A stretch of DNA of 64,000 nt from Haematobacter genomosp. 1 (GTDB taxonomy: Bacteria; Pseudomonadota; Alphaproteobacteria; Rhodobacterales; Rhodobacteraceae), in NCBI RefSeq assembly GCF_002196855.1, contig NZ_NIPW01000023.1, positions 1 to 64,000 of the forward strand, written 5' to 3'. The number at the start of each line of letters is the position of its first letter. Positions within the stretch are counted from its first letter, which is position 1. Below, piece by piece: positions 4,556 through 48,109 of the stretch. The notes beneath the pieces are model-generated. The model ran no database searches and was not told the origin of the DNA. It saw only the letters and a list, made by a program, of their open reading frames with translations. The translations under genes were made by a program, and so were the position numbers.

Positions 4556-5584
4556 ATGACTAAATTGCTCCCCACATCGACTGCCGGCAGTCTCCCCAAA
4601 CCGTCCTGGCTGGCAGAGCCGGAAAAGCTCTGGTCCCCCTGGAAACTTGAAGGTGAGGAGTTGATTGCTGGCAAACAGGACGCTCTTCTCTTGACCCTGG
4701 CCGAGCAGGAGCGCGCGGGGATCGATATCGTCAGCGATGGAGAACAGACCCGCCAGCATTTTGTCACGACCTTCATCGAACATCTCGACGGCGTCGATTT
4801 CGAGAAACGCGAAACCGTGAGGATCCGCAATCGCTACGATGCGAGCGTGCCAACGGTGGTGGGTGCCGTGTCCCGCGAAAAGCCGGTATTCGTGGAGGAT
4901 GCCAGGTTCCTGCGGCAGCAGACCGAAGGTCGTATCAAATGGGCTTTGCCCGGGCCCATGACGATGATCGACACGCTTTATGATGCGCACTACAAGAGCC
5001 GCGAAAAACTCGCTTGGGAGTTTGCCGTGATCCTCAATCAGGAAGCGCGCGAGCTTGAAGCCGCCGGGGTCGACATCATCCAGTTCGACGAACCTGCGTT
5101 CAACGTTTTCTTTGACGAGGTGAACGATTGGGGCATTGCCGCTCTGGAAAGGGCGATTGAAGGGCTCAGGTGCGAAACGGCTGTCCATATCTGTTATGGC
5201 TACGGCATCAAGGCCAATACCGATTGGAAGAAAACGCTGGGCTCGGAATGGCGCCAGTATGAAGAGACGTTTCCCAAACTTCAGGCGTCCAATGTCGATC
5301 TGGTTTCGCTGGAATGCCACAACTCGCATGTTCCGATGGAACTGATCGAGCTTCTGCGCGGCAAGAAGGTAATGGTCGGGGCTATTGATGTGGCAAGCAC
5401 CACCGTCGAAACCCCGGAGGAGGTGGCCGATACCTTGCGCAGGGCGCTTCGGTTCGTGGATGTTGAAAAGCTTTACCCCTGCACGAACTGCGGCATGGCA
5501 CCGCTCTCACGTGAGGTTGCACGGGGAAAGCTCAAGGCGCTCAGTGCAGGTGCCGAAATCATCCGGCGGGAGGTCTCGGCTTAA
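4556..5584 (+). CDS. mesD: MesD, short folate-independent methionine synthase
   Basis: At 342 residues this is only the catalytic (C-terminal) half of MetE, the form called core-MetE. It should methylate homocysteine to methionine without B12. The zinc site is readable: His211 and Cys213 in HIC, Glu253 in SLEC, and Cys309/Cys312 in CTNC. The start SAGSLP-like segment near residue 11 is typical of the family. Adjacency to DUF1852 (mesX) places it in the MesD class, whose methyl donor is unresolved. A second, degraded copy of its zinc-site region survives at 1822-1900. Confidence 0.88.
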   Translation: MTKLLPTSTAGSLPKPSWLAEPEKLWSPWKLEGEELIAGKQDALLLTLAEQERAGIDIVSDGEQTRQHFVTTFIEHLDGVDFEKRETVRIRNRYDASVPTVVGAVSREKPVFVEDARFLRQQTEGRIKWALPGPMTMIDTLYDAHYKSREKLAWEFAVILNQEARELEAAGVDIIQFDEPAFNVFFDEVNDWGIAALERAIEGLRCETAVHICYGYGIKANTDWKKTLGSEWRQYEETFPKLQASNVDLVSLECHNSHVPMELIELLRGKKVMVGAIDVASTTVETPEEVADTLRRALRFVDVEKLYPCTNCGMAPLSREVARGKLKALSAGAEIIRREVSA

Positions 5585-5628
5585 AAACCTGCGAATGATG
5601 GGCTGGCCGTCGCGGTGGTCCCGTTGAG

Positions 5629-5785
5629 CAGGCTGCTGAAAAAGTCCTGAAGCGTCATGCCCGTGCTCTGAAATCGGGAAATCAGCCGAGAAATAACCCA
5701 ACTTTGTAGGTTTTCGGCTGGATTTAACCAGTTTGCGACCGATTTCCGCTTCAACACGGACCCGAAAGCCTTTTTCGGCAACCTG
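5629..5785. mobile_element. Small inverted-repeat element (MITE-like), about 157 bp
   Basis: CAGGCTGCTGAAAAAG at 5629-5644 and CTTTTTCGGCAACCTG at 5770-5785 are complementary at 14 of 16 positions and face each other. The interior has no coding frame of its own. The ends look like those of DDE insertion sequences, so this is probably a non-autonomous derivative or a deleted IS. It lies between mesD and the convergent regulator gene. No obvious target duplication was confirmed. Confidence 0.5.
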
Positions 5786-5822
5786 TTAGTGTATGCCGTC
5801 AACTCGGAACGCGGCATGGATA

Positions 5823-7211
5823 TCATAGCTCGGTCGTCCCTGAGTAGGGGGCAAAGCGTGCCTGGCCGGAGCGGACGGCCAGGGGCCGGCTCACCATCGG
5901 AAAGGCGCGCTGCGGGCAATCCAGGCGCTCGCAGAGCTTGCAGCCGGGGCCGATCCGCGCGGCGGTCTCCGGGTTCTTCAGGTCCATGCCGCGCGCATAG
6001 ACCAGCCGCTCGGCATGGGCAAGGTCGCAGCCGAGCGCCACGGCGAAGGTCTTGACCGGCGCACCGAAGCCGCCCTGTCCGGTTTGCACCATGCGTGCGA
6101 TCCAGAGGTAGCTGCGCCCATCCGGCATCTGTGCCACCTGCCGCAGGATGGTGCCGGGCCGGGCAAATGCCTCGTAGATATTCCACAGCGGGCACGATCC
6201 GCCGATGCGGGAGAAGTGGAAGTCGGTCGCCGACTGGCGCTTCGAGATGTTTCCGGCCCGGTCCACGCGGATGAAGAAGAAAGGCACGCCCCGCGCGTCG
6301 GGGCGTTGCAGGGTGGACAGGCGGTGGCATGTGGTCTCGAACCCGACGCCGAAGCGGCGTGACAGGAGCTCTATGTCATATCTTACTGCCTCCGCCGCCT
6401 CCAGGAATGCGCGATAGGGCAGGATGAGGGCACCTGCGAAGTAGTTGGCCAACCCGATGCGCAGCAGGGCGGCGGCGTCCGGTGTGAGCTTCGGATCGGC
6501 GGAGAGGCGGGCGATGGTTTCTCCCTGTTCCAGAAAGGCTAGTTGCGTGGCGATCTGAAAGGCGATCTGGCCAGGCGTCAGATCGGCGGCGAGATGGAGC
6601 ACCCGTGCGGCGGGATCGTAGCGGCGCAGGGTATCGTTCATACCTTGCGCGATGCGGATCCCGTGTCGCCCCGCCAGCCGGTCGATCAGCCCGGCGCTCA
6701 TGCGCCCCGGCCCGAGCCCGTCACCGATCGCCTCGGCCGCGCGGTCCAGCTCGGGCACGTGATTGCGCCGCTCGTAGAACCAGTCGCGCACCGCCTCGTA
6801 GGCGGTGGGGGCGTGGCCCGGGCTGGCGGTGATCTGCCCGGCGAAAAGGTCTGCGCGTTCGGAGGTCTCCTTCAGCGTTTGCTGCATGGCGATGATCGAC
6901 CGTGCCACCCCGGGCATTTTCGAGGCGATTTCCCGAACCTCTGCCAGCGAGACGGCTGTGCCCTGATCGGCCAGCGCCCCGCGCAGATCAGTGATCAGCC
7001 GCGTCTCATCGGCATCGGAGAAGATCTGCACGTCCAATCCGAAGGCGGCATTGAGCTTCAACAGCACCGGAACGGTGATCGGCCGCGCGTCCTGTTCGAT
7101 CTGGTTGAGGTAGCTCGGGCTGATCTCCAGCGCGCGGGCAAGGGCAGCCTGCGTCAGCCCGCGTTCCTCGCGCAAGCGGCGCAGCCTTACGCCCATATAG
7201 GCCTTGCTCAT
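5823..7211 (-). CDS. PccR/ScfR-type short-chain fatty acyl regulator
   Basis: The protein (about 462 residues) has an N-terminal XRE helix-turn-helix (LRRLREERGLTQAALARALEISPSYL), a central ImmA/IrrE-like segment, and a C-terminal domain with several conserved cysteines (CPLWNIYEAF, GPGCKLCERLDCPQR). This is the layout of the short-chain fatty acyl regulator family (PccR, RamB, mycobacterial PrpR). It is divergent from the methylcitrate genes and is probably their regulator, responding to an acyl-CoA. I chose the ATG at 7211 rather than 7256 because the longer form would read through the TTCGCAA repeats that look like its own operator. Confidence 0.85.
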   Translation of the reverse strand: MSKAYMGVRLRRLREERGLTQAALARALEISPSYLNQIEQDARPITVPVLLKLNAAFGLDVQIFSDADETRLITDLRGALADQGTAVSLAEVREIASKMPGVARSIIAMQQTLKETSERADLFAGQITASPGHAPTAYEAVRDWFYERRNHVPELDRAAEAIGDGLGPGRMSAGLIDRLAGRHGIRIAQGMNDTLRRYDPAARVLHLAADLTPGQIAFQIATQLAFLEQGETIARLSADPKLTPDAAALLRIGLANYFAGALILPYRAFLEAAEAVRYDIELLSRRFGVGFETTCHRLSTLQRPDARGVPFFFIRVDRAGNISKRQSATDFHFSRIGGSCPLWNIYEAFARPGTILRQVAQMPDGRSYLWIARMVQTGQGGFGAPVKTFAVALGCDLAHAERLVYARGMDLKNPETAARIGPGCKLCERLDCPQRAFPMVSRPLAVRSGQARFAPYSGTTEL

Positions 7212-7212
7212 C

Positions 7213-7250
7213 TTCGCAACCTTCGCAATTCGCAGGATTATCATTCGCAA
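7213..7250. promoter_or_regulatory. Tandem TTCGCAA operator sites
   Basis: TTCGCAA occurs at 7213-7219, 7222-7228 and 7244-7250, with TTCGCAG at 7229-7235. An inverted copy (CTGCGAA) lies at 7313-7319. Regulators of the PccR/RamB class bind TTTGCAAA-type repeats, so this is a likely operator in the divergent promoter, one base variant from the known motif. Confidence 0.6.
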
Positions 7251-7329
7251 ACCCACGCATATTCAGCAGTTTACTGCTTCATTGTGGCTGTGGAAAGGTC
7301 TGCATGCCAACCCTGCGAAGGTTATCGCC

Positions 7330-7728
7330 ATGCACTCTCAACCCGACGTCAGGCTGATCGAGATGATCTTTCCCGATGCTGCGAACCACTATGGGACGCT
7401 GTTCGGGGGCAATGCGCTGGCGCTGATGGCGAAGGCCGCCTTTGTCGCCGCCACCCGTCATGCCGGAACTTCCGTGGTCATGGCGCGCTCCGAACGGATC
7501 GACTTCGCCACCCCGGTGCGGGTCGGCGATATGCTGGAGCTGAGCGCGCGAGTGATCCGCACCGGCCGCAGTTCCATGACGGTGGAGGTCAGCGGCTTTG
7601 CCGACGGGATCGGTGACCCGGCACCGCGCGCGGCGCTTTCCGGCCAATTCGAGATGGTGGCGGTGGATGCAGCGGGCCGCCCGCAGCGCCTTGCCCGAAA
7701 CAAGTACAACGAAGGACAGACGCAATGA
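7330..7728 (+). CDS. Hotdog-fold acyl-CoA thioesterase
   Basis: This 132-residue protein has the YciA/BACH-type hotdog sequence: [14 protein letters not shown] near residue 14 with the Asn-His-Gly-Gly active-site block, then [17 protein letters not shown]. It probably hydrolyses short acyl-CoA esters and may relieve propionyl-CoA or methylcitryl-CoA-related stress. It is first in the prp operon and its stop overlaps the prpD start by four bases. The ATG at 7330 follows a GAAGG ribosome site; an upstream in-frame extension to 7204 crosses the operator and is unlikely. Confidence 0.82.
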
Positions 7729-9233
7729 ACACCCATGATATGCGGACCTACAAATCGGCCGAACACCTGCCGCGCGAAGACCAGCTTGCGTGGAAGATCG
7801 CCGAAGTCGCCGCCGACCCGGTGGAGGTGTTGCCGGAAGTCACCGAGATGATCATCAACCGGATCATCGACAACGCCGCCGTCGCCGCAGCCTCGCTCGC
7901 GCGCCGTCCGGTGGCCTCGGCGCGGGCGCAGGCGCTCTGCCATCCGATGGCGCCGGGCGCCACGGTGTTCGGTCTGGCCAATGACCGGGTGAGCCCCGAA
8001 TGGGCGGCCTGGGCGAATGGCACGGCGGTGCGGGAACTCGATTTCCACGACACCTTCCTGGCCGCCGACTATTCCCACCCCGGCGACAACATCCCTCCCA
8101 TTCTGGCGGTGGCGCAGCATACAGGGCGTTCCGGGGCCGAGCTGATCCGGGGGCTGGCGACGGGCTATGAGATTCAGGTGAACCTCGTGCGCGGCATCTG
8201 CCTGCATGAGCACAAGATCGACCATATCGCGCATCTCGGTCCGTCGGCGGCGGCGGGGATCGGCACACTGCTGGGCCTTTCCACGGAGACGATCTATCAG
8301 GCGGTGCAGCAGGCGCTGCATGTCACCACCACCACGCGGCAAAGCCGCAAGGGCGAGATTTCGAGCTGGAAGGCCTATGCCCCCGCTTTTGCGGGCAAGA
8401 TGGCGATCGAGGCGGTGGATCGGGTGATGCGTGGCGAAGGCGCGCCGTCCCCGGCGTGGGAGGGCGAGGACGGCTTCATCGCCTGGCTGCTCTCCGGCCC
8501 GAACGCGCGTTATCAGGTGCCGCTGCCCGGCAGAGGAGAGGCGAAGCGCGCGATCCTCGACACCTATACCAAGGAGCATTCGGCGGAATACCAAAGCCAG
8601 GCGCTGATCGACCTTGCCCGCCGCATGGGTCCGCAGATCGGCGATCTGACGCAGATCGACAGCATCGTGATCCACACCAGCCACCATACCCATCATGTGA
8701 TCGGTACCGGCGCGAACGACCCGCAGAAAATGGACCCGAAGGCCAGCCGCGAGACGCTGGACCATTCGATCATGTATATCTTCGCCGTGGCGCTGGAGGA
8801 TGGCGGCTGGCACCACGAGAAATCCTATGCGCCGGATCGGGCCAACCGCCCGGAGACCGTGGCGCTCTGGCGCAAGGTCTCTACTACCGAAGACCCGGAG
8901 TGGACGCGCCGCTATCACGCCCGCGATCCGAAGGAGAAGGCCTTTGGCGGCCGCGTGGTGGTCACGCTGAAGGACGGGCGGGTCATCACCGACGAACTCG
9001 CACTGGCCGATGCCCATCCCGATGGCGCGCGCCCCTTCGAGCGCGAGAATTACGTGCGCAAATTCCTCACCCTCTCAGACGGAATCAGCGCGGGGGGCGA
9101 GCAGCAGCGGTTCCTCGACGCGGCGGCGGCACTGGCAACGCTGAAGGCGGGGGATCTCGGGGCGCTCAACTTCACCGTGGACGCGGAGAGGCTGGGTGCG
9201 CCCCGTCCACACGGCATATTCGACTGGAAATGA
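7725..9233 (+). CDS. prpD: 2-Methylcitrate dehydratase, MmgE/PrpD family
   Basis: PrpD dehydrates 2-methylcitrate to 2-methyl-cis-aconitate in propionate breakdown. The 502-residue length and segments such as [18 protein letters not shown] and [15 protein letters not shown] are typical of the MmgE/PrpD fold. It overlaps the thioesterase stop by four bases and is followed after eight bases by prpC, so the operon reads thioesterase-prpD-prpC-prpB. No prpE, acnD or prpF is present, so propionyl-CoA must come from another ligase, and PrpD with a housekeeping aconitase would complete the cycle. Confidence 0.93.
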
Positions 9234-9241
9234 GGGATCAG

Positions 9242-10411
9242 ATGAGCGGCTCCATGCTGAAACCGAAGAAATCCGTGGCCCTCTCCGGGGTGGTTGCCGG
9301 CAATACCGCGCTGTGTTCGGTGGGACAGTCGGGCAATGACCTGCATTATCGTGGCTTCGACATCCTCGACATTGCCGAGGCCTGTGAATTCGAGGAAGTG
9401 GCGTATCTGCTGGTGCACGGCGCGCTGCCCACCGCCCCTGAACTGCGCGCCTACAAGGCGAAGCTGAAGGCCCTCCGGGGCCTTCCAAAGGCGGTGCGCG
9501 ACACGCTGGAGGCGATCCCCGCCGCCGCACATCCGATGGATGTGCTGCGCTCCGGGGTCAGCGCATTGGGCTGCGTGCTGCCCGAGGCGCATGACCACAA
9601 CCTACCCGGCGCGCGCGACATCGTGGACCGGCTGATTGCGGCGCAGGGCTCAATGCTGCTCTACTGGCACCACTACGCCCAGAACGGCCGTCGGATCGAC
9701 GTGGAGACGGAGGACGATACCGTTGCGGGCCATTTCCTGCACCTGCTGCACGGAATCGCGCCCTCGGCCGCCGAAGTGCGGGCGATGCACACCACGCTGA
9801 ACCTCTATGCCGAGCATGAGTTCAACGCCTCCACCTTCACCGCACGGACCATCGCGGGCACCGGGTCGGATGTGTATTCTGCCATCGCAGGCGCCATCGG
9901 CGCGCTGCGCGGGCCGAAGCACGGCGGCGCGAACGAGGTCGCCTTCGAGATCCAGAAGCGCTATGCCGACGCGGATGAGGCGGAGGCGGACATCCGTGCC
10001 CGCATGGCGGCGCGGGAGGTCATCATCGGCTTCGGCCACCCGGTCTATACCATCGCCGACCCGCGCAACGTGGTCATCAAACGGGTGGCGAAGCAGCTCT
10101 CCACCGCCTCCGGCTCCATGCGGATGTTTGACATCGCCGAGCGGATCGAGACGGTGATGATGGAAGAAAAGCGGATGTTCCCGAACCTCGACTGGTATTC
10201 GGCGGTGTCCTACCACCTTCTGGGCGTGCCGACCGCGATGTTCACGCCGATCTTTGTGATCTCGCGCACCTCCGGCTGGGGCGCGCATGTGATCGAACAG
10301 CGGCAGGACAACAAGATCATCCGCCCCTCTGCCAACTATATCGGGCCGGACAACCGCGCCTTCACCCCCATCGATAAGCGCGGCCTGCTGGCGCCGCCTT
10401 CGGAGGCCTGA
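9242..10411 (+). CDS. prpC: 2-Methylcitrate synthase
   Basis: PrpC condenses propionyl-CoA with oxaloacetate. The 389-residue protein shows citrate-synthase blocks: [26 protein letters not shown] with the catalytic His, [22 protein letters not shown] with the second His, and the C-terminal [10 protein letters not shown] block. A start near [14 protein letters not shown] is usual for PrpC rather than CitA. The ATG at 9242 lies eight bases after prpD; the open frame extending upstream to 8456 is only a shadow of prpD. It overlaps nothing and prpB follows at once. Confidence 0.93.
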
Positions 10412-10412
10412 G

Positions 10413-11327
10413 ATGCCCTATCTGATTGCAGACGATCTGCCGCGCGCAACGGCTGGAGCGCGGTTCCGCGCGGCGCTGGACCGGCCCGGCATTCTCCGGA
10501 TGCCCGGCGCGCATAACGGACAAGCGGCGTTGCAGGCAAAGGCTGCGGGGTTCGACGCACTCTATCTCTCCGGTGCCGCGATGACGGCCTCCATGGGTCT
10601 GCCTGATCTGGGCATCATCACGGTGGATGAGGTCGCCTTCTTCATCCGCCAGATCGCGCGGGCCTCCGGCCTGCCCCTGCTGGTGGATGGCGACACCGGT
10701 TATGGCGAGGCGCTGAACGTCATGCATATGGTCCGTGTGTTCGAGGAGGCGGGCGCGGGGGCCGTACATCTGGAGGACCAGCTGTTGCCGAAGAAATGCG
10801 GACATCTGAACGACAAGAAGCTCGCCTCCGCGCAGGACATGGCGGCCAAGGTTGCCGCCGCCGCTCGTGCCCGGCGCGATCTGGTCGTGATGGCCCGGAC
10901 AGATGCGGCGGCGTCCGAGGGCATCGAAGGGGCCGTGGAGCGGGCGAAGATGTATGTCGAAGCCGGGGCTGACGCGATCTTCCCGGAGGCACTGACCAGC
11001 GTGGAAATGTTCAGGGAAGTGCGCGCCCGCCTGCCGGGGGTGAAGCTGCTGGCCAACATGACCGAATTCGGCCGCACGCCCGTGCTCACCGCGCAGGAGT
11101 TCGAGGATCTGGGCTACGACATGGTGATCTGGCCGGTCTCCTCGCTTCGCGTCGCCAACAAGGCGCAGGAGCGGCTCTACACGGCGCTCGCCCGCGACGG
11201 CGCCACTACGGCGATGATACAGGAAATGCAGACCCGCGCGGAACTCTACGATGTGATCGGCCTCAATGCCTTCGAAGTACTGGACCGGTCCATCGCTCAG
11301 TCAGTCGTGCCGGAGTGGAAGTCCTGA
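10413..11327 (+). CDS. prpB: 2-Methylisocitrate lyase
   Basis: PrpB cleaves 2-methylisocitrate to pyruvate and succinate. The 304-residue protein has the phosphoenolpyruvate mutase/isocitrate lyase fold with DGDTGYG (Mg-binding, around residue 92), the catalytic KKCGH loop near residue 130, and MARTDA. It begins one base after the prpC stop and ends the operon. A weak six-base inverted repeat follows, but no clear terminator with a T-run is visible. Confidence 0.94.
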   Translation: MPYLIADDLPRATAGARFRAALDRPGILRMPGAHNGQAALQAKAAGFDALYLSGAAMTASMGLPDLGIITVDEVAFFIRQIARASGLPLLVDGDTGYGEALNVMHMVRVFEEAGAGAVHLEDQLLPKKCGHLNDKKLASAQDMAAKVAAAARARRDLVVMARTDAAASEGIEGAVERAKMYVEAGADAIFPEALTSVEMFREVRARLPGVKLLANMTEFGRTPVLTAQEFEDLGYDMVIWPVSSLRVANKAQERLYTALARDGATTAMIQEMQTRAELYDVIGLNAFEVLDRSIAQSVVPEWKS

Positions 11328-11425: not shown

Positions 11426-12190
11426 CTAATACAGTGCGATCGGGCTGCCGGTCTGGGGATCGGGGATGACGCGGAGCGGCAGGCCATAGATGCGCTGCAG
11501 GATCTCCGGGCGCATCACCTCCTCCACCCGCCCTTCCGCGACGATACGCCCCTGCGCCATTCCGATCAGCCGGTCGCAGAAGCGCGCGGCGAGGTTGATG
11601 TCGTGAAGCACTACGACCGCCATCGCCTCTGGCCGCTGCGCCAGGCTGCGCAGGAGCGTCAGCACCTCCACCTGGTAACGCAAATCCAGCGCGGCGGTGG
11701 GCTCGTCCATCAGCAGGCAGCCGGCGGATTGCGCCAGCATCATCGCAATCCAGCCTCGCTGCCGTTCCCCGCCCGAAAGGGTAGCCACCAGCTGCTCCCC
11801 CATCCCAGCAAGGCCTGCCGCGCCCATCGCATGCTCCACCGCCCGCCGGTCAGTATCGCCGAGCCTGCGGAACGGTCCGGTCCAGGGATAGCGCCCAAGA
11901 CCCACCAGCTCCGCCAGACACATGTCCCCGGCGGGCGGTGGGCTCTGCGGCAGGAAGGCGATGCGCCGGGCCAGTTGGCGGGCCGGGAGAGCGGCGAGCG
12001 GAAGACCGTCGAGCCGCAGCTCGCCTCGCGTGGGCCGTTCCTGCCCGGCCATCAGTCGCAGAAGCGTGCTCTTGCCCGCGCCATTCGCGCCGATGACGCC
12101 ATAGAGCAGCCCCCGGTCCAACCGCAGGGAAATCCCTTCCAGCAAGGGCCGACCCCCCGCGACGAAGGCGATATCGGTGAGATCGAACAT
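11426..12190 (-). CDS. ABC transporter ATPase, FecE/BtuD type
   Basis: This 254-residue ATPase energises the importer encoded upstream. Walker A is GANGAGKST near residue 34, the signature is LSGGERQRGWIA, Walker B is CLLMDEPTAALD, followed by VVLHDINLAARFCDR. These are hallmarks of the iron-chelate/B12 ATPases. The ATG at 12190 is preceded at a good distance by TGAGG; an ATG at 12196 overlaps the permease stop but sits too close to that site. It is the last gene of the riboswitch-led minus-strand operon. Confidence 0.9.
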   Translation of the reverse strand: MFDLTDIAFVAGGRPLLEGISLRLDRGLLYGVIGANGAGKSTLLRLMAGQERPTRGELRLDGLPLAALPARQLARRIAFLPQSPPPAGDMCLAELVGLGRYPWTGPFRRLGDTDRRAVEHAMGAAGLAGMGEQLVATLSGGERQRGWIAMMLAQSAGCLLMDEPTAALDLRYQVEVLTLLRSLAQRPEAMAVVVLHDINLAARFCDRLIGMAQGRIVAEGRVEEVMRPEILQRIYGLPLRVIPDPQTGSPIALY

Positions 12191-12192
12191 CG

Positions 12193-14106
12193 TCATTTCC
12201 TCAACAGACCGGGGAGAATCCAGAGCCCGGACAGGAATGCCGCCATCAGTCCCGCGGGTACCTGCCATGGAAAGGCCGCGATCCGCCCGAGCCAGTCGGC
12301 CGCCACCATGACTGCTGCACCTGCCAGCGCCGCCCCTGCCAGCCCGGCGGCCGGGGTCGTCAGGCCGGCGGCACGGGCGATCTGCGGCGCCATCAGGCCC
12401 AGAAAACCGACCGGCCCCATCACCAGCGTCGCGATGGCGGACCCCGCGGCTGTCAGCCCGACCAGCGTTCCCCGCGCGACCGGCAGCGCCAGTCCCAGCG
12501 ACCGGGACGCCTCCGCGCCGAGCGGCAGGATCGCCAGCCAGCGGGAAAAGGCCGGGACCGTCGCCAGAAGCGCTCCGGCCCCGGCAAGCGCAAACATCGC
12601 ATCCTCCGGCGTCGCCCGCCAGGTGGATCCGGCCAGCCAGCCCATGAGCAGCGCTGCCCGCGGGTCTCCGCCAGCGAGCAGGAGCGACGTGAGCGCGGAG
12701 AGGAGCGTGACCCCCGCCACCCCGGCCAGCACCAAATGCAGCGGCGAGAAGCTCCGCCGCGCCGCGAGCGCCACTGCCACGACGGCGGCGAGGAGGGCGC
12801 CGGCGAAGGTTGCTGCCACGAGCGCCGGGCGACCCGTCGCGCCAAGTGCCACCACCCCGATCAGGCCGAGCGCCGCGCCGGAGGACACGCCCAGCAGTTC
12901 CGGGCTGGCCAGCGGATTGGCCGTCAGGCGCTGCATCAGCACGCCTGCGATCGCGGTCGCCGCGCCCGCGGCCACCGAGACGCCGATCCTTGGCCAGCGG
13001 AGGTCTGTATAGGTTGCGCCGTCCCAGAGCCATCCGTCCGGGAAGCGGCCGAGCGACAGGGAGAGCCAGACCAGCCCGCCGAGCATCGCGGCCATCATAC
13101 AGAGCACGACCGCAGGCCGACGCACGCGGCGCGCCGGACGGGGCGGTGACAGCCGGGGCGCCGCTGCAGGCAGGCGCCGCAACAGCGACAGCAACACTCC
13201 TGCGCCGACCAGCGCGGTGATCGCACCTGCCGGCACCGGCAGGCCCGTCGTCCGCACCGCCTGATCGGCCAGCGCCAGCAACCCGGCGCCGATCGCCATG
13301 GCGGCGAGGGGTAGGCGCCGCCCCCGCGCCCCTCCCAGCCGGGCCAGCGCCGGGGCGATCAGCCCGACGAAGCCGATTACTCCCACGCCCGCCGCCACCG
13401 TCGCCGCCAGCAGCACCGCCGGCAGGAGCAGCGCCGTGTGCCAGAAAGCGATGCGCAGCCCCAAGCCCTGCGCCATGCCGTCGCCCAGTTCCAGCAGCGC
13501 CAGCGGGCGCGCGGCCAGCATCGCAATGCCCGCCGCCAGCGCCAGTGCCACGGCGATGCCCGCGGCGGACATCCAGCCGGCCTGCACCAGCGACCCGGCC
13601 TGCCACAGGAAAAGCTGCTCCATCACCTGATGGTTGAAGAGCGCCAGCATGGCATTGATGCCGCCGAGCCAGATCCCCGTCACCAGTCCCGACAGCAGGA
13701 TCGCGCCCGCGCCGAATCCCGCCCGCGCCGACAGCGCCATGACCAGGGCGAAGGCAAGGAGCGCCCCCGCGAAGGCCGCCCCCCAGCCCGCCAGACCGGG
13801 CGCGGCCACCAGCGCGAGGCCGAGCGCCAGCTGCGCTCCGCCGAAGAGGCCGAGGGTGGCGGGCTCCGCCAAGGGATTGCCCAGCACGCGTTGCAGCAGC
13901 AGCCCGCAAAGCGCCAGCCCCGCGCCGGAGAGCAGCGCCGCAACCAGCCGGGGCGCCGTCGAAAGGTGGAGGATCATCTGTCCCACGTCGCCGGCTTGCG
14001 GCCAGATCATCGCCGCGATGGTTCCGGCGGGGGCGAGATCCCGCGCCTCCTGCCAGAAGAGCCAGAGCGCGGGCAGCCAGAGCAGCAGGATCAATACGCG
14101 GATCAT
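12193..14106 (-). CDS. FhuB-like double-length iron-chelate/B12 permease
   Basis: At 637 residues this is a fusion of two FecCD/BtuC-type permease halves, as in FhuB. Both halves carry the family blocks: RVLGNPLAEPATLG and RLTANPLASPELLGV for the first, and GVIGFVGLIAPALAR and GPVGFLGLMAPQIAR for the loop contacting the ATPase. Many transmembrane helices are evident. Its ends overlap the binding-protein gene by four bases upstream, and the ATPase abuts downstream. The duplicated form is typical of hydroxamate siderophore importers, while the operon is under a B12 riboswitch, so the cargo is uncertain. Confidence 0.9.
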   Translation of the reverse strand: MIRVLILLLWLPALWLFWQEARDLAPAGTIAAMIWPQAGDVGQMILHLSTAPRLVAALLSGAGLALCGLLLQRVLGNPLAEPATLGLFGGAQLALGLALVAAPGLAGWGAAFAGALLAFALVMALSARAGFGAGAILLSGLVTGIWLGGINAMLALFNHQVMEQLFLWQAGSLVQAGWMSAAGIAVALALAAGIAMLAARPLALLELGDGMAQGLGLRIAFWHTALLLPAVLLAATVAAGVGVIGFVGLIAPALARLGGARGRRLPLAAMAIGAGLLALADQAVRTTGLPVPAGAITALVGAGVLLSLLRRLPAAAPRLSPPRPARRVRRPAVVLCMMAAMLGGLVWLSLSLGRFPDGWLWDGATYTDLRWPRIGVSVAAGAATAIAGVLMQRLTANPLASPELLGVSSGAALGLIGVVALGATGRPALVAATFAGALLAAVVAVALAARRSFSPLHLVLAGVAGVTLLSALTSLLLAGGDPRAALLMGWLAGSTWRATPEDAMFALAGAGALLATVPAFSRWLAILPLGAEASRSLGLALPVARGTLVGLTAAGSAIATLVMGPVGFLGLMAPQIARAAGLTTPAAGLAGAALAGAAVMVAADWLGRIAAFPWQVPAGLMAAFLSGLWILPGLLRK

Positions 14107-14924
14107 GCCATCGCCGCGCGGATCGCCGTCGCAAGGCGGATGGCGGAGGCCACGCCGCCCGCCGGAAACACTGGCGGCAGCGGCCGCAGCCGGTCCGCAA
14201 GGTTGAAGGACAGCGCGTCCAGGAAGGGACCGGCGGACCCGGCGCCGCCGATGGCCAGCACCGCCGGGCCGTCCCGGTCCACCAGTTCATCCAGCCCCGT
14301 GCTGCGCGCCCCCCAGATCATGCTGCCGGTCGCGGCATTGGTCAGCCCCATGGCCGACAGCACGTCACCCGGCAGCGAACCCGGACCGAAGACGATCATG
14401 TGCCGCCCATCCTCCAGCATCCGCACGATCAGCGCCCGCTGCGCGCCGAGCGGGGTCAGCGCATCCTCCAGCCGGGCCAGCAGCGGACCGGAATCGCGGC
14501 CGAGAATGCGCGCCATCTGATCCGCCAGCGCGCGGGCCGTCGTCAGCGCGCCCTCCAGCGGCAGGGTCTGCAGCCATTCGACCGGGGCGATACGCTCCAG
14601 CCGGCCCGCTGCCGCCTGTTGCCACGCGGCGGCAAGGATCAGCCGCGGGGCCAGACGGCGCAGCAATTCGAGGTTCGGCTCGTTCAGCGGGCCGAGGTCC
14701 AACGCCGCGCCGGGGGCGGGATCTCGCACCAGCCGCTGATAAAGCCCGCGATTACCGATGGCGGCGGGGCCGTGGCCGAGCGCGAGACAGGTTTCCGTCA
14801 GGATGAGCTCCGTAGTAACCACGCCCCCCGCGGTATCCCCGGCGCCCGCAGGCGACAGGGCGCCGCCTGCGCGGGCATGAGCTGCCAGCGCCAGCGCAGC
14901 GGCAATCGCCGCGCGCCGGTTCAT
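14103..14924 (-). CDS. Periplasmic binding protein, FhuD/BtuF type
   Basis: This 273-residue protein begins with a probable export signal (MNRRAAIAAALALAAHARAG) and continues as a type III periplasmic binding protein, with LNEPNLELLRRLAPRLILA, the usual conserved stretch before the interdomain helix, and a late GLDELVDRDGPAVLAIGG block. It should deliver the chelate or corrinoid to the FhuB-like permease. Its start overlaps the stop of the preceding gene by four bases and its stop overlaps the permease start by four. Confidence 0.82.
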   Translation of the reverse strand: MNRRAAIAAALALAAHARAGGALSPAGAGDTAGGVVTTELILTETCLALGHGPAAIGNRGLYQRLVRDPAPGAALDLGPLNEPNLELLRRLAPRLILAAAWQQAAAGRLERIAPVEWLQTLPLEGALTTARALADQMARILGRDSGPLLARLEDALTPLGAQRALIVRMLEDGRHMIVFGPGSLPGDVLSAMGLTNAATGSMIWGARSTGLDELVDRDGPAVLAIGGAGSAGPFLDALSFNLADRLRPLPPVFPAGGVASAIRLATAIRAAMA

Positions 14925-15661
14925 AGCCCGATCCCCAGATGCCGGGCCAGCGGCGGGTCGTGCCGGACAATGAGGCGGTCGAGATGGAAGCAGGGCGCCA
15001 GCAGCCGTTCCTGCCGCAGGGCCACGCGAAGTTGCGCCCGGCCATGGCGCCCGGCGGGAACGGGCAGATCCTCCCCCGCCCGGACCGCCCGCCGTACGGC
15101 CGTCTTCAGTGCCACCAGATCGGGCGGCCCGAACCGCGCCAGAAGACGCTGGAAGGCGGCATGGTCCTCTACATCGAAAGGCCGCGCCACGCCGGGGCGA
15201 TGGCGGCACGGATGGGCGGGAAAGGCATGGGCGAACGGCAGCAGCCCCGCCGGGACCGGCGTGGTGGCGGGATGGGTGCGCCGTGTGTCGCCGAGCAGCG
15301 GCGGATCGCGGTCCCAGACCTCCAGCCGTCCCAGAGGGCCGCGCGCGATCCAGTCCCGCCCGCGGTGGCTGAGCCGGATCAGTCGCGACCCCGTCGGAAT
15401 CTCGACCTCCCCCTCGGGGGCGCGTTCGACGGCGTGCGACACCGTCTCCGGCAGGCAAAGCGAGATGCCGTGGTTCCAGCCCTCCGGGTCGGAACTCAGC
15501 ACCTCGAAGGCCAACGGGCGCAGGTCGGGCGGCAGGCGCAGGTGCAACGCCCCCCGCCTGCCCAGATCGGCCCCCGCCAGACCCAGCACCGCGCCGGGCC
15601 CGCCCATGCTCCAGATGCAGCGCGGATCCGCCATCAGCTCTTCGATCAGCCCGGTCGGCAA
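14921..15661 (-). CDS. Uncharacterised protein between TonB receptor and binding protein
   Basis: I do not assign a function. The 246-residue sequence lacks a signal peptide or membrane helix, starts with LIEELMADPRCIWSMG, and has His/Cys-rich text near the middle (FAHAFPAHPCRHRPG) and a C-terminal HDPPLARHLGIGL. It is locked into the operon: it starts three bases after the TonB receptor stop and overlaps the binding-protein start. The frame opens at a TTG (15661); an ATG at 15634 with a GAAGAG site is an alternative. Its position suggests handling of the imported chelate in the cytoplasm, but that is inference. Confidence 0.7.
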   Translation of the reverse strand: MPTGLIEELMADPRCIWSMGGPGAVLGLAGADLGRRGALHLRLPPDLRPLAFEVLSSDPEGWNHGISLCLPETVSHAVERAPEGEVEIPTGSRLIRLSHRGRDWIARGPLGRLEVWDRDPPLLGDTRRTHPATTPVPAGLLPFAHAFPAHPCRHRPGVARPFDVEDHAAFQRLLARFGPPDLVALKTAVRRAVRAGEDLPVPAGRHGRAQLRVALRQERLLAPCFHLDRLIVRHDPPLARHLGIGL

Positions 15662-15664
15662 GGG

Positions 15665-17803
15665 TCAGAACTTCCGCCGATAGGCGAGCTCAACCGTGCG
15701 GGGCTGACCCAGGAAGGCTTGCGCGCGCTCCGTCGACGGATCGGTGCGCAGGTAGTCGGCATAGACCCGGTCGAGCAGGTTCGTCACCCGCAGGCTCCAG
15801 ACGGAGGCCGCGTCGGGCACGTAGTCGACGCCGACGTTAACCAGACCGTAGCCCGCCCGCTTCGTGGTATTCGCGAAGTCGTAGTAGGATTTTCCGATCA
15901 ACTGCACAGACCCGTTCGCGCGCCATCCGGGAGCGAAATCCCACGACCCCCACAGGTTGCCCGACAGTTCCGGCACCAGGATCGGCACATTGCCGGAATA
16001 GTCCTCCACCTCGAAGGTCAGCCAGTTGATGGAGGTGAAATCGTCGTAGCGCGCCCTCGTCCAGGCGGCGTTCCCGCCCAGCTTCACGTCGTCGGACAGC
16101 TGGAACGCCCCGGCCAGTTCTACCCCTCGCGAGGATTGCCGCCCGACCTGCTGCGTGGCGAAGGTCGCCGAGTCGAAGACCAGCAGGTTGCGCTTGATGA
16201 TATCGAAGACCGCCAGCGACCATTCCCCGCGCCCTTCGAACACCGATTGCTTGACGCCCAGTTCGAACTGCCTACCGGTCGTCATGTCGAAATCCGTCAT
16301 GGAGGCGGAATAGTCGAGCAGCGGCAGGTTCACCGGATCGGTCGCATAGGACATCTGGACATAGAAGACGGTCGCGGTATTCGGTGCGAAGGTCAGGCCC
16401 AGCCGGCCGCCCGGCCCCTCAAAATCGGCGGAGAAGTCATTCGCGGCCGATATGTGATCCTCACGCTCCACCGTGAACCAGTCGTAGCGCAGGCCGGCGC
16501 TGATCGCCCATCGATCGGTGATCTCGAGCCGGTCCTCGGCGAACACTGCATGCTGGTTGAGGGTGGAGTGATAGCGGGGGACCAAGTCATCCGGCAGCGG
16601 AAAGCGGCCTACCTCCGGGTGCCACGGATCGACGAAGCGGGGGGCGTAGGCCGCGAAATCGGCAAAGTCGGATTTGGCGCGGTTCACGTCGAAGCCCAGA
16701 AGCAGCTGGTTGCTCCGCCCCGCCACATCACCGCTGAACCGCACGTTAGCGCGCGTACCGAATTGAGACTGATCCTGCCGGATGCGACGGAATTCATCCA
16801 CGGTGACCAGATCCGTCGCGGGATCCCAGAGATAGGTTTCGGCATTGCGGAAGATTCGCCGGCTGTCGATGCCGTAGATCACCCATTCCACACCGACGGT
16901 ATCGGAGGGGGTCCATTCCGTGCGAAGCTGCATCCAGCTGTCGCGGAAGCGATTTTCGGCGTCCGAGACGTTGAAATTGTTGTCCCGGAAGGATTCGACA
17001 ATCGTTCCGTCCCGCAAGGGGGTACCGAAATAGGCGGGTGGCTCGCGATCCGCATGGGCGCCGCTCAGCGTGACCTTCACCTCGTCCGTCGCTTCCCAGG
17101 CCAGTGCACCGGAAAGGACGAGATTGCGGCTGTCGGTATCGTCGACCCAGCCTTGCGACGCGTCGCCCACGGCGTTCAGGCGGAAACTGAGCCGGTCGTT
17201 CAACGAACCGCCCGCGTCATAGGCCAGCCGTGTGCGCAGGTTGCTGTCGAGCAGCGCAGCCACCTCCTGCCGGATCGGACCGGCGAAGGGACGCTTGGGC
17301 TGGATGTCGATCGTTCCGCCGATGGCGCCGGTGCCGTGCATGACCGATGCGGGCCCGTGCAGTACTTCGATCCGCTCCACGAGCCAGCTGTCGAAGGGGA
17401 AGCTGATATTGCCCCGGCCGGGGAAAAGCCGTGTACCGTCATAGAGCTGCATCACCGAATTGTTGCCCTGGAATCCGCGCAGCGCATAGGCGCTGCCGAA
17501 CACGGGCGCCGCGACCGAGGTCACTCCGGGAACGTCTTGGGTGACAGCTTCGACCACATCAGTCTGCCCGCGCGCGGCGATGGTTACAGCCGTGACCACG
17601 GAGATCGAGGCGGGAATATCTTTCACGGACACCCCGAGGCGGCTACCAGATGTGGCCGGAGTGGTAAAACCCAGCGTGGGCGGGCCGGTGATCACCACGG
17701 TGTCGAGCGTGGTTTCCTGGGCGTGAAGCAGGCCCGCCGGACAGGTTGAAAGCGAGAGCAGGGCCAACATCAGCCGGCGGGGATTTGTGGAAAAGATGGA
17801 CAT
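15665..17803 (-). CDS. TonB-dependent outer-membrane receptor
   Basis: The 712-residue receptor begins with a signal peptide (about residues 1-28, ending LLHAQ), then a plug domain with VVITGPPT, DIPASISVV, QDVPGVTSV, ALRGFQGN and VERIEVLHGPASVMHGTGAIGG, and a beta-barrel ending in aromatic Phe (AYRRKF), the outer-membrane signature. The plug resembles siderophore receptors more than classical BtuB. It is the first gene of a five-gene operon and is preceded by a cobalamin riboswitch, so its ligand may be a corrinoid. The ATG at 17803 was chosen because the upstream extension covers the riboswitch. Confidence 0.92.
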   Translation of the reverse strand: MSIFSTNPRRLMLALLSLSTCPAGLLHAQETTLDTVVITGPPTLGFTTPATSGSRLGVSVKDIPASISVVTAVTIAARGQTDVVEAVTQDVPGVTSVAAPVFGSAYALRGFQGNNSVMQLYDGTRLFPGRGNISFPFDSWLVERIEVLHGPASVMHGTGAIGGTIDIQPKRPFAGPIRQEVAALLDSNLRTRLAYDAGGSLNDRLSFRLNAVGDASQGWVDDTDSRNLVLSGALAWEATDEVKVTLSGAHADREPPAYFGTPLRDGTIVESFRDNNFNVSDAENRFRDSWMQLRTEWTPSDTVGVEWVIYGIDSRRIFRNAETYLWDPATDLVTVDEFRRIRQDQSQFGTRANVRFSGDVAGRSNQLLLGFDVNRAKSDFADFAAYAPRFVDPWHPEVGRFPLPDDLVPRYHSTLNQHAVFAEDRLEITDRWAISAGLRYDWFTVEREDHISAANDFSADFEGPGGRLGLTFAPNTATVFYVQMSYATDPVNLPLLDYSASMTDFDMTTGRQFELGVKQSVFEGRGEWSLAVFDIIKRNLLVFDSATFATQQVGRQSSRGVELAGAFQLSDDVKLGGNAAWTRARYDDFTSINWLTFEVEDYSGNVPILVPELSGNLWGSWDFAPGWRANGSVQLIGKSYYDFANTTKRAGYGLVNVGVDYVPDAASVWSLRVTNLLDRVYADYLRTDPSTERAQAFLGQPRTVELAYRRKF

Positions 17804-17914
17804 GCATAGCCCCTGGGGCAAAAGACACGTCACTTGCGAACGCAGGTCCATAGCCGGGCGCAGCCCGGAGACTTCCCCCGTCAGGACACCCCGCCCGACG
17901 TGTTCGCGCGTGAA

Positions 17915-18090
17915 ATCGGCCGACGGCAGGTCTCCTGGCTCACGGCTCGAACGGAGGTCTTCCCCTTCCCGGGCGCAGGCCCAGTGGTAAACGAAGACCG
18001 CCTTGCCGCCTACAGTTGCGGGGACAGCCGCAGCATGGGCCAAGTCAGCCGCACTGCATTCCCTTTTGATCCCCGAAGGGAACCGTCCCC
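17915..18090 (-). promoter_or_regulatory. Cobalamin (B12) riboswitch
   Basis: Read on the minus strand from about 18090, the segment has the ordered landmarks of this riboswitch: GGGAATGCAGTGC near the start, GGCTGTCCCCGCAACTGTA, CCACTGGGCC, a CGGGAAGG element, and the B12 box AGCCAGGAGACCTGCC ending near 17922. It leads into the TonB receptor gene about 110 bases later. A GGGC-TGC-GCCC hairpin near 17855-17870 could serve as the expression platform. Binding of adenosylcobalamin would normally switch the operon off. Confidence 0.92.
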
Positions 18091-18304
18091 CGAGCGCTAG
18101 GATCACCGACCCGTGATGTCAACTGAATTGCTGCGCACCGCGATGTCTTTTCAGCAGGCGGCTTCGGCGAGCCGACGTCACTGGAGGAGAGATGGCGCGT
18201 TTGATGGGGCACCGCGCGCGCCGACGCAGATGCGACGCCGGATTTGGGTTCCGTCCGATTTCCGGCGTCCGTAAGTGCAGGCTCGATCATCATTGATCGC
18301 AGTC

Positions 18305-23344: not shown

Positions 23345-23685
23345 GTTTGCAAGGGTTTGGCTGGCCCGGGATGCAGGGGCGTAATCCCCTTGTTCTGCAG
23401 GGCTTCGTGGAAGCAGTCGGCGTCATAACCGCGATCGGCCAGCAGCCAACCCGCTTTCGGCAGGCTGCCCAACAGCGCCGTGGCGACGGTGTAATCGCTG
23501 ACCTGTCCGGCCGACATGAAGAACCCGAGCGGGCGCCCCCCCGGCATCGGCGACGGCGTGCAACTTGGTGGTCATGCCGCCTTTGGTGTGCCCCATCCGG
23601 CGCCCGCGCCCTGCCTTCGCGTCGAAGCTGCCGCCCTGCATCATGGCCATGGAGGCGTGGGGCAGGCGATCATCCCATGGGAGGA
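23345..23685 (-). pseudogene. IS5-family transposase fragment
   Basis: The minus strand carries MGHTKGGMTTKLHAVADAGG, then GRPLGFFMSAGQVSDYTVA, KAGWLLADRGYDADCF and GLRPCIPG, the middle of an IS5-family DDE transposase with its second Asp in DRGYDAD. The pieces fall in different frames, with shifts near 23520 and 23390. The N-terminal third and the C-terminal Glu region are missing, and the 3' side joins the acuI fragment directly. It is not functional. Confidence 0.75.
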
Positions 23686-24420
23686 TCACTGGCAGCACTC
23701 GGGCATGAGATCCGGTTGATGTCGCCGGAATATGTCCGACCTTCCGTCAAAGCCCAGAAGAATGACTACCGCGATGCGGAGGCCATTGCCGAAGCGGCGA
23801 CCCGGCCTACCATGCGTTTCGTCGAACTCGAGAGCAAGGAACAGCTCGACGTTCAGACGTTGCACCTGGTGCGGGATCGATTGGTCGGTGAGCGTACGTC
23901 GCTGACCAACCAGATCAGGAGCCTTCTGCTTGAACGCGGACATGTTGTCGCACAAGGCCATGCCAGGTTGCGGCGCCTGCTCGCGGAGTTGCTGGACCCT
24001 GTGCCGGCAGCCTCAGTCCACGCATGGTATTTCTGCTCAGTGACATGCGGACGCGTTGGCAAGAACTGGACCGCCGGATTGCTGCGTTCGATGCAGAATT
24101 CACGACCATGGCCAAGTCCGATGAGGGAGTGCGCCGGCGGACAAGCATTCCGGCCATCGGTGCACTGAATGCCACCGCATTGGTGGCCGCTGTCGGCACT
24201 GCCGCGACATTCACGAAATGACGAGACTTGGCCGCCTGGCTGGGTCTGCTGCCCAGGCAGGCGACAACGGGTGGAAGGACAAAGCTCCTCGGGATCACAA
24301 AGCGGGGCAGCAGTTCACTGCGCAAGATGTTGATCCAGGGCGCACGAGCCGCCATGCGACCTTGGCCAGAGCGGATACAGCGGTCGGTGCCTGGCGGCGC
24401 GCACTTCTTGCCCACACCCT
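23686..24420 (+). pseudogene. IS110-family transposase fragment
   Basis: The plus strand reads LAALGHEIRLMSPEYVRPSV, KNDYRDAEAIAEAATRPTM and VRDRLVGERTSLTNQIRSLL, the RuvC-like and linker part of an IS110/IS1111 transposase with two of its acidic residues. A shift near 24010 leads to a second piece (TSIPAIGALNATALVAAV), and another near 24220 to AAWLGLLPRQATTGG and SSSLRKMLIQGARA, the Tnp20 domain. The first 50 or so residues are missing. It is clearly inactive. Confidence 0.78.
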
Positions 24421-41808: not shown

Positions 41809-42897
41809 TCATCCTGGATGACAGCCGGCAGGTGCCGGACGCGGATAAGGGGTTGCACAAGCCCAGCCTTCGAGCGTCGGTTCCGTCTCGTAGAGCTCTG
41901 GGCTCGGTGCCGAGCAGATCTCCACCACGCCCCGCCTGCCTTCCTGGCGCCCGAGCTGCACGACGACGTCAATTGACTGCCGGCAGTACCGGACGACGCT
42001 CTCGTAGGGCATGGCGATGCCGGTAGATAGCACCATGAGGGCCAGCCGTTCGATCGCTCGCGCCGCGGTTTCCGCGTGCAGCGTGGTGAAAGAGCCGCCA
42101 TGGCCGGTATTGATGGCCTCCAGAAAGGTCTTCGCCTCACCTGCCCGGAGCTCGCCGAGGATGATCCGGTCCGGCCGCATCCGGAGGGTGGATTGCAACA
42201 GCAGATCGGAAGACCGAGCCGATCCGTCCTTGCGCTCGCAGATCAGTTGCACAGAGTTCGGTTGCGGTGCATGGATTTCGGCGGAATCCTCCACGGTCAG
42301 AACGCGCTCGCGCGGATCGACGAGGCCGAGCAGCGCGCGGGCGAAGGTGGTCTTGCCGCTGGAGGTACCCCCGGAGATCGGGATGTTGAGGCGCGCATCG
42401 ATGCAGCGCTGCCAAGCTGCCGCCATCTCGCCACCGGCAATCAGGTCGCGCACCGCCTGCGCCTCGCTGGCCCGCCGGCTTTCGAGATCGACCAACTCGC
42501 CGTGCAGAAGCCCAATGTCTGCGATCGCCATGCTGCTCTGGACGTACTTTCGCAGGCTGATCGCCGGACCGCCCAGGACAGCCGGCGGCCCCACCACCTG
42601 CGCCCGGAGGTTCTGCCCCCGGACCTTCACCGCGGTGGAGATGATCGGCGCCTTGTCCGAGAAGGCGGCCTGGGCCTCCGCGCAGATGGCGCGCGCCAGC
42701 CGCTCCTGCACGGGCGCATCCAGTCTCACCCCGGCCGGTTCCATATGCGGCTGCCCGAGCCGCTCGAGGAAAACCGCCCCGTCGGGGTTGATGGCCAGCT
42801 CGACCACCCGCTCATCCTGCAGCGCCGCCCCGAGACGGGAAAGATATTCCTCCAGGAAACTTCCCGCGCCAGCACTGTCCACCTCGGCCACGCTCAC
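41809..42897 (-). CDS. virB11: VirB11-type secretion ATPase
   Basis: VirB11 is the hexameric ATPase at the inner membrane of type IV secretion systems. The 362-residue protein has Walker A ISGGTSSGKTTFARALL near residue 174, the Asp box TVEDSAEIH, LRMRPDRIILGELRAGEA (Walker B) and the His box TGHGGSFTTLHAETA. The frame starts at a GTG (42897) that overlaps the virB10 stop by four bases. It reads to an apparently normal end, though its last 15 residues (PRPAPAGCHPG) are unusual. It is the last of the five virB genes here. Confidence 0.92.
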   Translation of the reverse strand: MSVAEVDSAGAGSFLEEYLSRLGAALQDERVVELAINPDGAVFLERLGQPHMEPAGVRLDAPVQERLARAICAEAQAAFSDKAPIISTAVKVRGQNLRAQVVGPPAVLGGPAISLRKYVQSSMAIADIGLLHGELVDLESRRASEAQAVRDLIAGGEMAAAWQRCIDARLNIPISGGTSSGKTTFARALLGLVDPRERVLTVEDSAEIHAPQPNSVQLICERKDGSARSSDLLLQSTLRMRPDRIILGELRAGEAKTFLEAINTGHGGSFTTLHAETAARAIERLALMVLSTGIAMPYESVVRYCRQSIDVVVQLGRQEGRRGVVEICSAPSPELYETEPTLEGWACATPYPRPAPAGCHPG

Positions 42898-44207: not shown

Positions 44208-44949
44208 CGCCAGTGCGCCTCCCGCAGGGCGAGCGCCTGGACCAGTTGCGGATCGCGGATCGGCGTGCCTTGCACACGGCGAATGCAGATCACCTCGTCG
44301 CCATGCCGCAGGGTGAACTCGTGGCCCAACCCGCGCACCCGGACGACATTGCCCCGTGTGGTTGGATTGACGGAGCGCTCCTTTCCGGCGCCATCGACGC
44401 CGAAGATGGAGGGCACGGTTGCTCCGGCGAATTCGAAGAAGGTCGCCTCGCCATTGTTCCAGACCCTCAGGGGACGGATGTCGGCGGCCTGCCCTTTCCA
44501 CTGATAAGCGACGTCGCGCGCGCGGAGCAGGTCGGGAGCGGCGCTTGTCGCGGCGCGCCGCGTTTCCCCTGGATAAACGAAGCTCACCCGGAACGGCGGC
44601 CGGCCGGTGCCCTCGGAGAGGAAGAAGCTGTAGGTCCGCCGGTCGGTGTAGACCGTCATGTTGGTCGCAGCCTGCCCGATCAGCGGCTTGATCGAGATGA
44701 CATTCCCGGAACTCAGCACGTCGATCTCATAGCTTTCGGAATCGCCCACCAGCACCGAGCGGATCGCCTCGCCGCGGGCAAATTCGACGGCGGTATTGGT
44801 CACGAGGCCGGTGTTGATACGCACCACGTCCGTGTCGTGGAAGGAGACGGTCTGCACCCGCGCATCGGGCCCCGCCCGGGCGGGCAGACGTTCGGCATGG
44901 GCGGCAGGGCGGTGACGGCCGCAAGGATCAGGGCAACGGCACGGTTCAT
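44204..44949 (-). pseudogene. virB9: VirB9-type protein with frameshifted signal peptide
   Basis: VirB9 forms the outer-membrane ring with VirB10. The body reads VQTVSFHDTDVVRINTGLVT, PRETR-type text PGETRRAATS, VWNNGEATFFEF, and DEVICIRRVQGTPIRDP, all intact to the stop. The signal peptide begins at the ATG at 44949 (MNRAVALILAAVTALP), which overlaps the virB8 stop, but a one-base change in the C-run near 44900 throws it out of frame with HAERLPARAGPDARVQ. Unless this is an assembly error, no exported VirB9 is made. Function of the set is then doubtful. Confidence 0.85.
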
Positions 44950-47340: not shown

Positions 47341-47479
47341 GACTTCGGAGCTCGTCTTAAGGACGGTGAGGGCGGCAACCAGGCCGACCCTGTATTTGCT
47401 AGGGGAGACCACTTCTTGACGTAGAGCCCGCCTGGGCAACTATTCTTAAGGCACCGGGTCGCTCGGATGCCCCGTGATC
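47341..47479. other. IS-junction spacer
   Basis: No gene recognised; scar between the IS110 relic and an IS3 fragment. Confidence 0.3.
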
Positions 47480-48036: not shown

Positions 48037-48109
48037 CGGGGTCTGCGTAAGTGTCGTGGTTGAAGCATCGAAACTTCACCTCGACCATACACCTCGATGG
48101 CCACACGGG

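Follow-up and report, generated by a model that had tools for sequence, protein, structure and literature searches.

A cobalamin riboswitch-led import operon of apparently mosaic composition in Haematobacter genomosp. 1, with a probable role in B12 or cobalt supply

Among the described systems that most resemble the operon reported here, CbtJKL of Sinorhizobium meliloti is a BtuF-like, riboswitch-controlled cobalt importer (PMC7689651), and icuAB of Methylobacterium is a TonB receptor operon that raises cobalt uptake (PMC2732905), likened to the present case by description. A TonB receptor led by a B12 riboswitch and predicted to serve cobalt is likewise already known from a review (PMC7689651). 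The outer-membrane receptor CrtA of Bordetella pertussis (formerly BfrG) imports chelated Cu(II) and has a conserved pocket composed of Y130, W265, E337, Q356, H358 and R395; H358 is invariant, an H358S mutant shows the phenotype of a deletion, and a PepSY_TM neighbour is present at more than 75% of CrtA-type loci (PMC12914433). The text of the CrtA paper contains no match for 'cobal*' or 'riboswitch'. Here we examine an operon in a 64,000-nucleotide stretch of Haematobacter genomosp. 1 (contig NZ_NIPW01000023.1, positions 1 to 64,000; hereafter the window), in which a cobalamin riboswitch precedes genes for a CrtA-related TonB receptor, a DUF6925 protein and transport components resembling FhuD, FhuB and FhuC.

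Covariance, profile and junction analysis of the window identified a single RF00174 riboswitch and five genes, all on the minus strand (Table 1). The riboswitch scores well above the gathering score of 31.5 bits and the whole model is matched, so that the aptamer, described as nearly complete and as lying ahead of a TonB receptor in the first-pass annotation of this DNA, is in fact complete; the outer coordinates given there, 11426-18090, proved right to about a dozen bases. ATGA overlaps are present at the DUF6925/FhuD-like, FhuD-like/FhuB and FhuB/FhuC junctions, and three bases separate the receptor stop codon from the first possible start codon (TTG) of the DUF6925 gene. Open frames are found in all five genes, with high third-position G+C in those of the receptor, DUF6925 and FhuB. 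The five genes look like one transcription unit with the DUF6925 gene built in, and the best explanation of the operon is a mosaic import system recruited into the cobalamin regulon. It is highly probable that the system belongs to B12 or cobalt supply, and the connection goes beyond a stray riboswitch because the receptor's clade is riboswitch-linked and the DUF6925 family has B12 associations. The chance that the ligand is a siderophore- or metallophore-type cobalt chelate is about even, and we consider this more likely than cobalamin.

Table 1. Riboswitch and genes of the operon, with positions in the window and supporting evidence
Feature	Position	Strand	Evidence
Cobalamin riboswitch aptamer RF00174, complete	17908..18102	-	116.8 bits, E 1.3e-28, model 1-189/189
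Aptamer-to-start-codon stretch, presumed expression platform	17804..17907	-	position
TonB-dependent receptor, siderophore type, 712 aa	15665..17803	-	TIGR01783 235.2 bits; 9rvq E 3e-70; tree; alignment
DUF6925 protein, 246 aa counted from TTG	14921..15661	-	PF21973 166.7 bits; alignment
FhuD-like periplasmic binding protein, 273 aa	14103..14924	-	PF01497 35.4 bits (cut-off 27.5); PRK10576; 1efd_N
FhuB-type permease, double length, 637 aa	12193..14106	-	FecCD two stretches, 356 bits; 7lb8_B; tree
FhuC-like ATPase	11426..12196	-	PF00005 95.1 bits; PRK10575 278.7 bits; motifs by eye

The receptor exceeds the cut-off (223.5 bits) of TIGR01783, 'TonB-dependent siderophore receptor', and reaches 49.9 bits against a cut-off of 599.7 with the B12-receptor model TIGR01779, a comparison to be read with caution since the Btu-like receptor of the same host (199.2) also falls below that cut-off. 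By these profiles the operon receptor is not BtuB, which bears out the siderophore-like character noted at first pass. Its best solved relative is CrtA (PDB 9rvq), matched over nearly the entire receptor length, from which the window receptor differs in having Gln in place of the essential His358, a B12 riboswitch in the lead and no PepSY match among the five operon genes in a profile scan. CrtA and each of the 39 aligned relatives have His at the H358 position; Gln occurs there in the window receptor only (Gln343, codon 16777-16775). The Glu corresponding to E337 is kept, and the Q356 position is Ile in every row of the alignment except CrtA and one other. Eighteen riboswitch-linked kin share 119 invariant columns, of which the window receptor retains 101, compared with leave-one-out values of 94-100% for the kin themselves. 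Gln343 and the lost invariant columns thus mark it as the odd member of its clade.

Receptor relatives were collected from overlapping sets of 385 class, 292 order and 299 phylum genomes, with matches in eight class genomes (E 1e-60), two order genomes and 23 phylum genomes (E 1e-80), the window's own genome being counted each time; eight of the best plasmid matches were added, near-identical records being passed over, to give 39 loci. RF00174 is present in 22 of these and RF01482 in one more, within flanks of about 5-7 kb that are shorter at contig ends, such that some riboswitch misses may lie beyond the flanks. The riboswitch label is clustered on the receptor tree (5 changes versus 14.8 in shuffles). 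The receptor phylogeny, a check proposed at first pass, places the window receptor in a clade of 18, itself counted, in which all members are linked to a cobalamin riboswitch (support 97/95), nearest to Bradyrhizobium and two other genomes of the same class (98/96) and on a long end branch (1.29). Clade receptors are partnered either by PepSY_TM-type proteins or by an ABC importer with a single FecCD; many of the PepSY-type genes were identified by eye, those of Bradyrhizobium are annotated, and PF03929 is present in L089, the one locus so tested. The riboswitch-led operons of Bradyrhizobium, Methylobacterium, Azospirillum (where the receptor is the last gene) and Paracoccus share receptor clade and riboswitch family with the window operon and differ from it in these inner-membrane partners, and DUF6925 was not found in the sampled loci.

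At seven loci (L053, L054, L063, L089, L093, L096 and L097) a riboswitch-led siderophore-type TonB receptor is followed by a PepSY_TM-type protein, annotated or recognised by eye, and these receptors are candidate outer-membrane cobalt receptors. Several loci also have cob-like genes close by, as judged by eye. A different arrangement was seen at L062, L099 and L101, where related receptors follow a DUF2946-type (CruR-like) gene, annotated in L062 and assigned by eye in the other two, without a nearby riboswitch, as in copper-regulated CrtA operons.

For all three transport genes downstream, Fhu models rank first. The permease contains two FecCD stretches, scores 546.0 with the best NCBIfam FhuB model, just below the cut-off of 554, and matches solved FhuB (7lb8_B) at E 1.1e-101, in agreement with the double-length FhuB-type fusion recognised earlier. 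PRK10576 matches the FhuD-like protein at E 5.1e-25 (88.4 bits, below the cut-off of 252), as does 1efd_N at E 4.1e-19, and the best model for the ATPase, PRK10575, stays below its cut-off of 433; P-loop, signature and Walker B motifs are all present by eye. With a double permease and with Fhu models ranking first, the set is not the BtuFCD combination of a single BtuC-type permease with BtuF and BtuD. Like BtuB-BtuFCD, the operon has a riboswitch, a TonB receptor, a binding protein, a FecCD-family permease and an ATPase, and its additional DUF6925 gene recalls many alphaproteobacterial btu loci; it differs in a receptor far under the BtuB models, a fused double FhuB and a FhuD-like binding protein. 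FhuCDB likewise combines a double permease with relatives of FhuC and FhuD; among solved structures, E. coli 7lb8 matches FhuB best and is one of the top matches for FhuD. From FhuCDB the operon is distinguished by its riboswitch, its DUF6925 gene, a receptor of another clade and the absence of the FhuD residues R84 and Y106.

At E 1e-40, 20 of the 292 order genomes have a permease of this kind, counting the window's own; the other 19 show 40-46% identity. RF00174 is present in none of those 19 FhuB loci (up to 11 kb each), nor in a Roseomonas plasmid locus, and in four more plasmid records obtained with stricter filters the FhuB operon is never riboswitch-led, the nearest riboswitch lying 9 kb away on the opposite strand in Shinella; a riboswitch-led FhuB was thus found at 0 of 24 other loci checked. 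Methylobacterium bullatum and a close relative have FhuB upstream of a riboswitch, which there heads a different receptor. The permease phylogeny, also suggested at first pass, groups the window FhuB with the Roseomonas plasmid operon, which holds a sigma factor, FecR and FhuF (SH-aLRT 97). This was a quick tree in which both grouped branches are long (1.46 for the window FhuB), so the grouping is unsure. Taken together, the Fhu module looks iron-derived, and it is the sole riboswitch-led one in this sample. Residues R84 and Y106 of E. coli FhuD, which we take to be hydroxamate contacts, correspond to Leu and Gln in the FhuD-like protein; among Rhodobacterales FhuD proteins R84 is present in 18 of 19 and Y106 in 17 of 19, and both are missing in L050, L054 and L064. 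The loss of these contacts was considered as proof of a changed ligand and dropped, since the iron-type Roseomonas FhuD and Methylobacterium proteins lack both residues as well.

The gene embedded between receptor and FhuD-like gene, which the first-pass annotation regarded as uncharacterised and as a candidate factor in corrinoid or chelate handling, could be assigned to DUF6925 (PF21973, cut-off 27 bits), and the associations of this family make it a fair candidate in corrinoid or cobalt handling. The window protein matches profile positions 4-95 and 158-299 and lacks the central block (about 96-157), and so is shortened; an alternative ATG lies nine codons past the TTG. No signal peptide is visible by eye and the protein is probably cytosolic. 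PF21973 was detected in 26 of the 385 class genomes and 13 of the 292 order genomes, the window's genome being in both. Of the 38 other DUF6925 loci, 25 have RF00174 no more than 8 kb from the gene, against a rough chance figure of 1.4% per gene, and in at least 18 of the 25 the gene is located downstream of the riboswitch and shares its strand. The family is linked to cobalamin riboswitches and to btu genes. CbtA adjoins some members, as PF09490 in L027 and, together with CbtB, by annotation on an Agrobacterium plasmid.

Most long DUF6925 members carry a GPHTH motif and the central block, both lacking in the window copy, and four of eight aligned short members have a four-cysteine N-terminal segment, presumably resembling DUF1289. 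Short four-cysteine proteins of this kind occur at L036 (7073-7957), L032, L033 and L049, some adjoining CbtA-like or cob-like genes. One scan of genome contigs with DUF6925 returned a single relative, and the profile had no match among PDB sequences at E <=1. An AlphaFold2 model from a two-row alignment (mean pLDDT 38.8, pTM 0.33) was not used.

In the 4.2 Mb host genome, where the window makes up the start of a contig of 73,027 bases, an RF00174 scan detected four cobalamin riboswitches, that of the operon included. One, on genome contig C4, leads a receptor gene and ABC transporter genes readable as BtuB-F-C-D. The top-ranking models there are those of BtuB and BtuC, which stay under their cut-offs, and with identities to Paracoccus aminophilus of 70% (BtuB) and 74% (BtuC) this operon is, on sequence grounds, orthologous to the P. 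aminophilus btu operon. The host therefore already has a candidate corrinoid importer. DUF6925 is absent from its usual place at this locus, and no PF21973 gene other than the window copy was found in the genome. Another riboswitch leads a cobalamin synthesis cluster in which CobW, CobN, CobH, CobI, CobJ and CobB score above their cut-offs and a CobG-like protein just under; since the host has these genes, cobalt should be needed. The third (L008, genome contig C73) leads a set at 4993-8578 consisting of an EitA-like binding protein, a FecCD-type permease, an ATPase and a cupredoxin of plastocyanin/azurin type, and its binding protein resembles the counterpart in the ABC partner of the receptor clade.

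A cobalt chelate is favoured as ligand because the kin and partners of the receptor are metal-type, because genes for cobalamin synthesis and a Btu-like system are already present in the host, and because CbtJKL provides a precedent. Described as BtuF-like, and compared here by description only, CbtJKL is likewise an alphaproteobacterial ABC importer under a B12 riboswitch, and it demonstrates that cobalt can be the cargo of a system of that type (PMC7689651). Control would be by B12, scarce adenosylcobalamin permitting expression of the operon, a direction we infer from the riboswitch class; the presumed expression platform folds no better than shuffles (z 0.41), and a search for loop pairing within it gave 5-base matches only. 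The TonB receptor would then move a cobalt-bearing chelate across the outer membrane into the periplasm, where the FhuD-like protein would pass it to the double permease, and FhuB with FhuC may carry it intact into the cytoplasm. There DUF6925, presumably a cytosolic protein whose translation is coupled to that of the FhuD-like gene, might release, remodel or sense the cargo, with the cobalt feeding the host's own cobalamin synthesis. The full version of this scheme, an intact cobalt-metallophore route under B12 control in which a CrtA-related, His-changed receptor is joined to FhuDBC and DUF6925 strips or routes cobalt or remodels a corrinoid, is put forward tentatively and is rather unlikely to hold in every part.

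A number of observations weigh against a cobalt-chelate importer. The metal-site His of the family is lost, so the receptor may not bind the ligand of its kin; the kin of the Fhu genes are iron-type; and in a 2021 review, in the parts used here, no cobalt-specific outer-membrane receptor counts as confirmed (PMC7689651). Nor is the association with riboswitches simple: the receptor relatives are not all riboswitch-linked, the five changes of label on the tree mean that a single origin of the link is not shown, 8 of the 38 DUF6925 loci are on riboswitch-free contigs and another 5 lie far from any riboswitch, and RF00174 is absent from the Agrobacterium plasmid that carries DUF6925 and CbtAB. 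Two further results speak for a corrinoid importer in particular: within the score limits applied, btu genes lie near DUF6925 in 20 of 38 loci and FhuB in none, and DUF6925 is found in 0 of the 59 receptor-clade and FhuB loci scanned. On this alternative, a close rival with an appreciable chance of being correct, cobalamin, cobinamide or incomplete corrinoids would be imported by siderophore-type parts, the Fhu module replacing BtuFCD, DUF6925 keeping a corrinoid role and the receptor pocket being changed. The missing His and the departures from otherwise invariant columns are what a changed ligand would produce, CbiZ (adenosylcobinamide amidohydrolase, PF01955) is encoded between btuD and DUF6925 in L042 and, as annotated, in Phaeobacter, and a riboswitch-btuBFCD-DUF6925 operon of P. 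aminophilus converges on prpB just as the window operon does. That shared position is known from one record, however, and six other inspected prp blocks have other genes there; moreover, models of BtuB, C, D and F rank first for none of the genes in the window operon, and the Btu-like operon elsewhere in the host would already serve such a purpose. The first-pass annotation had left the choice between a corrinoid importer and a B12-regulated metal-chelate importer without taking either arm; this was the right fork, and we lean towards the metal chelate.

Import of a plain ferric siderophore, under B12 control by chance or cross-talk, is on indirect grounds less likely and in our view improbable. 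The top-ranking models for the three transporter genes are those of FhuB, FhuC and FhuD, that for the receptor is a siderophore-receptor model, and the unsure grouping of FhuB with the Roseomonas sigma factor/FecR/FhuF operon points the same way, but the receptor clade is riboswitch-linked, a gene of a B12-linked family lies inside the operon and a profile scan found no siderophore reductase among the five genes. We also scanned for TGA-N9-TCA and the Fur consensus, patterns that we assume to represent the iron box and the Fur site; the former has zero matches between 17203 and 22726, and the latter none in the window, which is weak evidence as none was expected by chance. Least probable of all is a system that is drifting under weak selection and has no fixed substrate, in which the long end branches of receptor and FhuB, the shortened DUF6925 and the loss of an otherwise invariant His would reflect relaxed selection; the five open frames, the high third-position G+C, the complete riboswitch and the retained ATPase motifs and ATGA couplings speak against it.

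As far as our searches of the open-licence literature go, the placing of an Fhu module under a riboswitch, the loss of the His, the relationship of a riboswitch-led clade to CrtA and the DUF6925 context are new: no paper was found there on the FhuB/riboswitch or PepSY/riboswitch combinations, and none names DUF6925. The operon and the receptor clade provide riboswitch-labelled candidates for cobalt receptors, for which the structure of a relative (CrtA) and a difference at one residue are at hand, and DUF6925 gains a context of cobalamin riboswitches and btu genes. Were the intact cobalt-metallophore route true, the wider riboswitch-led receptor clade would hold outer-membrane cobalt receptors of the kind not yet confirmed.

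The operon is met by a convergent block at 5823-11327 that reads as a short-chain acyl-CoA regulator, a thioesterase, prpD, prpC and prpB, its prp genes being closest to Paracoccus (82.5%), from which the host would probably belong in or close to Paracoccaceae. An equivalent prp block converges on btuBFCD-DUF6925 in P. aminophilus, which suggested an in-place swap of that operon by the Fhu module. This is not claimed: the btu operon of P. aminovorans is at the opposite side of the prp block, other genes follow prpB in P. yeei, P. versutus, Cereibacter, Thioclava and P. ferrooxidans, and the host keeps the orthologous btu operon elsewhere. Comparison of the operon DNA with plasmids gave 299 matching records, none of which reaches 80% coverage. 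Elsewhere in the window, type IV secretion-like genes (VirB11, VirB8 and others) were recognised by eye at 41809-48966 and transposase-like pieces near 23400-23960, and the contig may be a plasmid or the bearer of an integrative element.

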